Assembly: GCA_020631655.1 (NCBI GenBank)
Contig: JAHDGV010000005.1
Location: forward strand, 1 to 40,325
Reading direction: 5' to 3'
Length of the DNA stretch: 40,325 nt
DNA from: Chloroflexota bacterium
GTDB lineage: Bacteria > Chloroflexota > Anaerolineae > Promineifilales > Promineifilaceae
A program made the position numbers and the translations under genes. Of the stretch, positions 38,874 through 40,325 are shown piece by piece. Position 1 is the stretch's first letter, and each line of letters starts with the position of its first letter. A model generated the notes under the pieces. That model made no database searches. It had not been told where the DNA came from and saw only the letters and a list, made by a program, of their open reading frames with translations.

Positions 38874-39605
38874 CTATTGTGAGCCAACAATCTCAACTAA
38901 TTCAACTTCGAAAATAAGTGTCGCGTTGGGCGGGATGGTTGGAGGGCTACCCTGTGCACCATATGCCAATGCAGATGGAATGGTTAGGATCGCTTTTTCA
39001 CCCACAGTCATCTCAGCAATTCCAATTTCCCAGCCGGGGATCACAAAGCCTTGACCCAATGGGAATTCAATCGGTTCACCCCGATCAATCGAGCTATCAA
39101 ATACGGTTCCATCTTCAAGCGTACCTGTGTAGTGAACGCGTACGGTATCCCCTTCTTGAGGTTGTGCGCCGTCCCCTTCTTCAAGAACTTCACGTTCAAC
39201 ATCTAAAATATTCAAGATTTCAATCTCGAAGTGGAGATCAGCGTTGGGTGGAATTGAAGGAGGAGCACCTTGCTCACCAAAAGCGTCTTCGGCCGGTACA
39301 TCAACCGAAATCAGGTCGCCTACTTTTTTGCCCTCAAAGATGGGATCCCAGCCGGGGAAGAAAATCCCTTCACCGTATGGGAAAACAATTGGTTGGCCAA
39401 CTTCATTCGTGTCAACAAATACGTCGCCGGTATCAACTAAGGAGCCTACCATAGCAATTTCAAGAAAATCCCCATCTTGAATCAAGCCATCGCTAGACAT
39501 GCTATCACCACCGCTACTATCTGCAGGTGGTCCACCCGGAGGAGGTCCGCAAGCCGCAAGGAAAGCGGCAAATACGACAAATAAAATACTCAGTTTAAAT
39601 TTCAC
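38874..39605 (-). CDS. Lipoprotein with two FKBP-type peptidyl-prolyl isomerase domains
   Basis: The signal peptide [23 protein letters not shown] has lipobox LAAC, so the protein is exported and lipid-anchored. Two FKBP domains follow. The first (about residues 45-135) is divergent: [22 protein letters not shown]...[47 protein letters not shown]. The second (about 150-243) is canonical: [62 protein letters not shown]. It probably aids folding of exported proteins. The track start is 39623, but GTG at 39605, preceded by AGGAG with a six-base spacer, fits the ribosome site better. Confidence 0.92.
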
Positions 39606-39768
39606 AATTATCTCCTGATCCATGACAATGGATTTGGTAATTTAATTAAGATGTTGTCAGACCAAGAGGTCACTATGCTTTCAAGGTCGCTATGCATCCA
39701 AGATCTTGAAAATACATCTTTGCATTATAAAGTTTAGGTTGAAAAGGGAGGAAGGCTTACACAGCAAT

Positions 39769-39892
39769 TTGCTTAGGAACGTGACTTAAATAACTGTTCC
39801 AACTAAATCGCAGTTCCTGCCAAACTGAAGTTTAAATCACTAGAAATCAATTTACAGATGGGACAGTTTTTTAAACTTCAGTCCTTAAGCAA
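39769..39892. repeat. Nested inverted repeat, MITE- or ncRNA-like
   Basis: Outer arms TTGCTTAGG (39769-39777) and CCTTAAGCAA (39883-39892) pair with one bulge. Inside are ACTGAAGTTTAAA (39824-39836) and TTTAAACTTCAGT (39870-39882), a 13-bp perfect inverted repeat, plus AGGAAC/GTTCCT at 39775-39780 and 39813-39818. The arrangement fits a folded element of about 124 bases. Confidence 0.5.
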
Positions 39893-39969
39893 TCGAATGT
39901 AGAGGAGTATAACAGGCCAAATGAAGTTTGTCAGAGGTTATTAGGAAAATTATGTAGGTAAAAAAGGTG

Positions 39970-40114
39970 AGATTCAAAGAGTGAGTAAGGCCTATTCTGA
40001 AAATTAATTAGGATGAATCATTGCAAATTTTCAGAATAGGCTCGAGGCGTTTTCGGTTTGATTATTTTTATTTTTCCGAAAACGCCCAATTGCACAAGAT
40101 TCACTCTTTGATCT
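39970..40114. repeat. Three-way inverted-repeat element (closing stem plus two internal hairpins)
   Basis: An outer stem pairs AGATTCAAAGAGTGA (39970-39984) with TCACTCTTTGATCT (40101-40114) with one bulge. Within it are a 16-bp perfect hairpin GCCTATTCTGAAAATT/AATTTTCAGAATAGGC (39990-40005, 40026-40041) and an 11-bp perfect hairpin GGCGTTTTCGG/CCGAAAACGCC (40046-40056, 40076-40086). Three stems in this nesting are very unlikely by chance. Neither inner hairpin has a terminator-like U-tract on the minus strand. Confidence 0.65.
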
Positions 40115-40131
40115 ACCAGCTCCGGCAAAGA

Positions 40132-40325
40132 TTACGGCTCTATCGGTTCTTCGGCTAGGCGGACAACGCACAACACATAATCCGCTTCCGTTTCTTCAGA
40201 ACTACACCGTGGGTCTTTGCTCCACCCGAGGCTACTTAACGTTGGTGCTTCTTCATTTCGATTAAAATTCCCGAATTCGGCCGTCGGTAACGGCGTCATT
40301 GTAGGTGTCGGGGTCATTGTTGGCT
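40132..40325 (-). CDS. C-terminal fragment of a protein with a (TP)n linker
   Basis: The frame is open to the window edge, so the track start is internal. It reads PTMTPTPTMTPLPTAEFGNFNRNEEAPTLSSLGWSKDPRCSSEETEADYVLCVVRLAEEPIEP and then stops. The Thr/Pro repeat is an extracytoplasmic linker of the same kind as in the HTH membrane protein at 941. The last 45 residues are acidic with two cysteines and match nothing I recognise. The main body of the protein lies outside the window. Confidence 0.65.
   Translation of the reverse strand, partial: PTMTPTPTMTPLPTAEFGNFNRNEEAPTLSSLGWSKDPRCSSEETEADYVLCVVRLAEEPIEP

Follow-up and report, generated by a model that had tools for sequence, protein, structure and literature searches.

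The 145 bases near the right edge of the window, the whole 40,325-nucleotide stretch from a Chloroflexota (Anaerolineae) bacterium that was analysed, are very probably the result of an insertion: a 98-bp MITE, a passenger probably mobilised by an ISAzo13-type transposase, has transposed into the loop of a pre-existing stem that is probably a terminator. This reading is directly supported by the copies of the element, by their target duplications, by an empty site for the copy on contig C380, by a MITE-free version of the window locus in G049, a genome of the same genus, and by a match between the ends of the element and those of an ISAzo13 insertion sequence (IS). The features concerned are these:

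38874..39623, minus strand: downstream gene, FKBP-type peptidyl-prolyl isomerase (PF00254, from the domain match)
39776..39884, no strand assigned: second MITE, 109 bp, its terminal repeats of a different ISAzo13 type; perfect duplication of TTA (39773-39775 and 39885-39887)
39960..39985, minus strand: 3' arm of an older host stem, then TTTTTT, a probable intrinsic terminator (from the stem with T6 and the MITE-free stem in G049)
39986..39988, plus strand: left target duplication, TAA (from flank comparison)
39989..40086, plus strand: MITE, 98 bp, with GGC...GCC ends and two hairpins (from three own-genome copies aligned with relatives, the 3-bp duplications and the C380 empty site)
39990..40041, plus strand: hairpin A (hairpin 1), perfect 16-bp arms 39990-40005 and 40026-40041, 20-nt loop; left terminal repeat and its inverted copy
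40042..40045, plus strand: linker TCGA, 4 nt, between hairpins A and B; mostly TNGA in relatives
40046..40086, plus strand: hairpin B (hairpin 2), perfect 11-bp arms 40046-40056 and 40076-40086, 19-nt loop; right terminal repeat and its inverted copy
40087..40089, plus strand: right target duplication, CAA, one base off the left (from flank comparison)
40099..40117, minus strand: 5' arm of the older host stem (same basis as its 3' arm)
40132..40323, minus strand: 3' part of the upstream gene, ending in ...RLAEEPIEP*; 15 nt separate its stop codon from the stem; end residues conserved in G049

The fold itself is far beyond chance. The 145 bases form a three-way junction of -63.4 kcal/mol on the plus strand, against -31.7 +/- 3.6 in dinucleotide shuffles (z -8.7, none of 200 as low), and reach -58.9 kcal/mol (z -9.6) on the minus strand, bearing out the sequence-only reading, which had described perfect hairpins of 16 and 11 bp inside a closing stem. 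The closing stem pairs 39966-39984 with about 40099-40116 and has two small bulges. A search of the window against Rfam gave no match at gathering score. A BLAST search with the region in the genome it comes from returned two more copies, on contigs C380 and C824, making three in total, and the alignment shows that similarity ends exactly at the hairpin ends, the flanks, closing stem included, being unrelated (hairpin A is inverted in the C824 copy, so that hairpin B of this copy was compared separately). Because the similarity is confined to the inner hairpins, two components have to be told apart, the element (39989-40086) and a stem of the host; the three-way junction arises from the two hairpins of the former together with the latter, a probable terminator stem. 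The inner element is short, non-coding, multi-copy and found at unrelated sites, as bacterial MITEs are; it is a MITE, a class that is itself already known. The earlier suggestion of a non-autonomous mobile element, to be recognized by copies with variable flanks, thus holds for the two inner hairpins, but not for the whole 145 bases, because the closing stem falls beyond the target duplication.

Duplications and an empty site show that the element was inserted by transposition. Comparing the three bases before the first G with the three after the last C, we found them identical in 20 of 25 distinct copies, where 7.4 were expected, and never as often in 20,000 shuffles that kept the target preference. 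The identical flanks are TTA, TAA, ATA, CAA and TTG, and identity over 4 bp was seen in none of the 25 copies. The TAA/CAA copies suggested a duplication of 2 bp (AA/TA), but the copies flanked by ATA/ATA, CAA/CAA or TTG/TTG speak for 3 bp. TAA/CAA is the imperfect duplication of the window copy and of the C824 copy; for the window copy we take the mismatch as decay, a weak point of the argument. The site of the C380 copy is empty in G049, which reads AGTTAAG-CAA-CCTAAAATC where the window's genome reads AGTTTAG-CAA-[97 bp]-CAA-CCCAAAATC, so that CAA occurs once in the empty site and twice around the copy. For the C824 copy no exact empty site could be placed. At the locus orthologous to that in the window, G049 lacks the MITE but has the closing stem.

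The MITE-free stem in G049 means that the stem predates the insertion. On the minus strand it is formed by GGTAGATCAAAGAGTGA and TCACTCTTTGAATCTCACC soon after the stop at 40132 and is followed directly by TTTTTT (AAAAAA at 39960-39965 on the plus strand); when the flanks are joined without the MITE, they fold with -19.2 kcal/mol (z -4.8), then T6. G049 has the orthologous gene with the same terminal residues, then GATCAGAGAGTGA-13 nt-TCACTCTTTGATC and CTCCCCATTTTT without a MITE, and the FKBP gene next. A stable stem with a U-tract directly after it, just past a stop codon and conserved in G049, is the make-up of an intrinsic terminator, and the closing stem, read on the minus strand, is probably that of the upstream gene. 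A simple scan for the terminator consensus (loop of 3-8, G-C rich) did not list it, because its loop is long, about 15 nt even without the MITE, and its G-C pairs are few. The sequence-only reading, which saw no U-tracts, is right about the plus strand only, and its conclusion that there is no terminator here is probably mistaken where the minus-strand version of the closing stem is concerned. Termination may have survived the insertion.

With the stem dated in this way, there is next to no chance that all three stems make up one 145-bp element, be it mobile or a site of replication or recombination. The three strong stems are indeed nested in the window copy, but the outer one accompanies this copy only. 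It is missing from the C380 and C824 copies, lies beyond the target duplication and stands MITE-free in G049, a locus that refutes the reading; evidence for a replication or site-specific recombination site was not found either. The place of the MITE within a terminator loop is a single case and accidental, since the 25 copies show no general preference for hairpin loops: their joined flanks fold no better than shuffles, except for the window copy and the copy at locus L111, whose strong hairpin is next to the insertion instead of enclosing it. At the right edge of the window there is a scaffold gap of 100 N (L159, 2327-2426) with the same sequence on both sides (PTMTPTPTMTPLPTAEF, coding); it is probably a false gap, or a small repeat in the gene that enters there.

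What moved the MITE was probably an ISAzo13-type transposase, as judged from its terminal sequences. A search with the left terminus alone led to contig ends in the genome G027, as a repeated IS would give, and to one nearly complete copy on its contig C144. This IS is about 1.28 kb long, bounded by GGCATCTTCCAAAAAATAATC and GGCGGTTTCCGAGAAATAAAC, and its reading frames match PF07592 DDE_Tnp_ISAZ013 (7.5e-60) and NF033519, ISAzo13 family transposase (2.3e-53), the latter in two frames that each stay below the whole-protein cut-off. Compared with the two ends of this IS, those of the window MITE are identical at 13 to 17 of 20 bases; the right end reaches 17 of 20 against the left end of the IS (0 of 5,000 shuffles) and the left end 15 of 20. 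They do not agree with ISAzo13 elements of other terminal-repeat types. The ISAzo13 ISs of G024, G007 and G042 are flanked by TAA/TAA duplications, and duplications of 3 bp have been reported for ISAzo13 and its eukaryotic relative Zator (PMC10045372). The transposase of the G027 IS (L154, 46-1265) is spread over two frames of 174 and 220 aa near a T run, possibly by programmed frameshifting or because the gene is broken, and several other ISAzo13 matches in the family likewise have the N-terminal part in another frame.

Transposase and element occur together in G027 and G024. The window's own genome, the assembly of which is 82% complete, gave no ISAzo13 transposase at E 1e-10, and many other genomes that carry the MITE are without one; present absence from the window's genome is compatible with past mobilisation. 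The automatic search for IS ends returned none for most of the fragmentary transposase loci. Together, the data suggest a model in which the MITE is the short passenger of an IS that belongs to the ISAzo13 family and has a DDE transposase. A transposase acting in trans would recognize the approximately 20-bp ends of the MITE (GGC...TTTTCGGAAAAATAA) and make a staggered cut of 3 bp at TTA/TAA-like targets. In the window the MITE would have landed in the loop of the older intrinsic terminator that stands between the upstream gene, on the minus strand, and the FKBP gene. Each terminal repeat stands beside its own inverted copy, which makes each end its own hairpin. In the open literature, which excludes subscription journals and ISfinder, we found neither an ISAzo13 MITE nor self-folding ends, and a MITE group tied to ISAzo13 appears to be undescribed.

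Relatives were gathered by searching with the hairpin-B motif and by scanning GTDB genomes for a pattern. The same order of parts (GGC-hairpin A, a linker of 4 nt that is mostly TNGA, GGC-hairpin B-GCC) is seen in elements of the Chloroflexota MAGs KLAP72, Bse_26, SJ142, NAT123 and Dive96, and in one element of Bse_31, a bin labelled Halieaceae that shares its sample series with Bse_26. Hairpin A is missing from the matches to the hairpin-B pattern in Verrucomicrobia, Salinimicrobium, Holophagaceae, Pontibacter and one uncultured MAG, which look like chance and were discarded. A covariance model built from 19 copies and run on 52 genomes of the family detected the element in 17 of them, with most matches in G030 (26, including weak opposite-strand matches to the same copies); 20 of 21 checked copies are intergenic, at unrelated sites. 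In G030, one double-hairpin MITE (L116, contig C834) contains a further repeat that forms a hairpin, GTAATTGGCAGA...TCTGCCAATTAC, and splits the loop of its hairpin B.

The arms differ among subfamilies and yet pair: 98.1% of cells are paired, seven pairs have changed on both sides (for example GC in 12 copies and CG in 7), and the covariation score of the arms is 0.237, where shuffles give 0.094 and sliding the partner gives no more than 0.065. The covariation that the sequence-only reading proposed to look for is there between subfamilies. Because the arms differ in this way, a pattern with exact arms had no matches in the genome and viral collections. Such covariation, together with the strength of the fold, would suit a structured non-coding RNA, cis-regulatory or small, whose fold is under selection and whose dispersal is secondary. 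DNA palindromes can, however, covary without RNA function, and covariation of palindromic arms can stem from arm-to-arm correction or selection and is no proof of such a function. Moreover, the 3-bp duplications and the empty site indicate insertion, the inverted loops of some copies would alter an RNA loop altogether, the flanking genes are unrelated, and Rfam holds no match. We therefore consider the RNA reading very improbable; a structured transcript could arise as a side effect, but the explanation does not require it. Adjacent intergenic hairpin pairs with covarying arms also resemble BIMEs, and a further reading makes the region a pair of REP/BIME-type palindromes that a RAYT (Y1, HUH) transposase has mobilised. 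Y1 elements leave no target duplication. The presence of 3-bp duplications, and ends that match a DDE-type IS, make this reading even less credible than that of an RNA. A strong multi-branched fold that resembles a designed RNA is, on the preferred reading, a mobile element within a terminator, an example that can be followed to the base; with its covariation coming from DNA palindromes, it is also a warning for structure-based discovery of non-coding RNA.

The hairpins at the ends of the MITE are not a feature of the ISs. In the MITE there is an inverted copy beside the terminal repeat at both ends (13 and 11 of 14 bases), whereas four autonomous ISs have none (best 8 of 14), which counts against the preferred reading. 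The loops sometimes change orientation. In the C824 copy (L003, 1504-1603), hairpin A has its loop turned round with respect to the remainder of the element and to copies of the same subfamily (17 of 20 bases agree inverted, 7 of 20 direct), and the loop of hairpin B is oriented differently in two copies of SJ142 (L054 and L055). Loops inverted among copies argue against a conserved RNA loop; such inversion happens at the level of DNA, and we infer either strand switching at the hairpin or recombination between the arms.

The second MITE, which shares the intergenic space of the first, has 11 matches in its own genome, 9 in G049 and 7 in G050, and is absent from the orthologous G049 locus. Its ends agree at 17 of 20 bases with the ISAzo13 IS of G007, and its GGACTGAAG end also folds back on itself (12 of 14). 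Elements of a third terminal-repeat type (L099 in G018) show, by eye, the same order of two hairpins. G025 has MITEs with a single stem (L125 and L134); their ISAzo13 ends are of the GGCCAA type, their duplications are TTA/TTA or TAA/TAA, and their interior is the common CAGATTACGCAGATT palindromic repeat. Many contigs of G044 contain a perfect TTTTCGGGGC(A/C)TTCGCCCCGAAAA palindrome, a distinct high-copy repeat with 209 matches; these TTTTCGG palindromes belong to another repeat and were set aside. The architecture of self-folded terminal repeats thus recurs with different terminal repeats, and a mechanism is called for. It is conceivable, if rather unlikely, that the paired hairpins play an active part, in that an ISAzo13 (Zator-like) transposase or the replication of its passenger makes use of single strands with folded ends, or produces them; this would account both for the covarying hairpin ends across terminal-repeat types and for the inverted loops.

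Among known systems, the ISAzo13-family ISs (PF07592 / NF033519) are closest, with terminal repeats that agree at up to 17 of 20 bases (G027 IS) and 3-bp duplications of the TTA/TAA type (PMC10045372). Unlike them, the MITE has no transposase, measures 98 bp instead of about 1.3 kb and carries hairpin-forming inverted copies at its ends, which the four ISs examined do not have. Correia elements, RUP and the QMITEs of Coxiella (PMC10969869) are likewise short, non-coding, AT-rich and intergenic, with terminal repeats and a target duplication; their transcripts are predicted to fold, and the repeats are inserted beside or into each other. They differ in their parent IS, and they form one stem in which the two ends pair with each other, whereas the MITE described here has a separate hairpin at each end. 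REP/BIME sequences with their RAYT transposases share the adjacent intergenic hairpin pairs with covarying arms, but the MITE is set apart from them by its 3-bp target duplication and its DDE-type terminal repeats.
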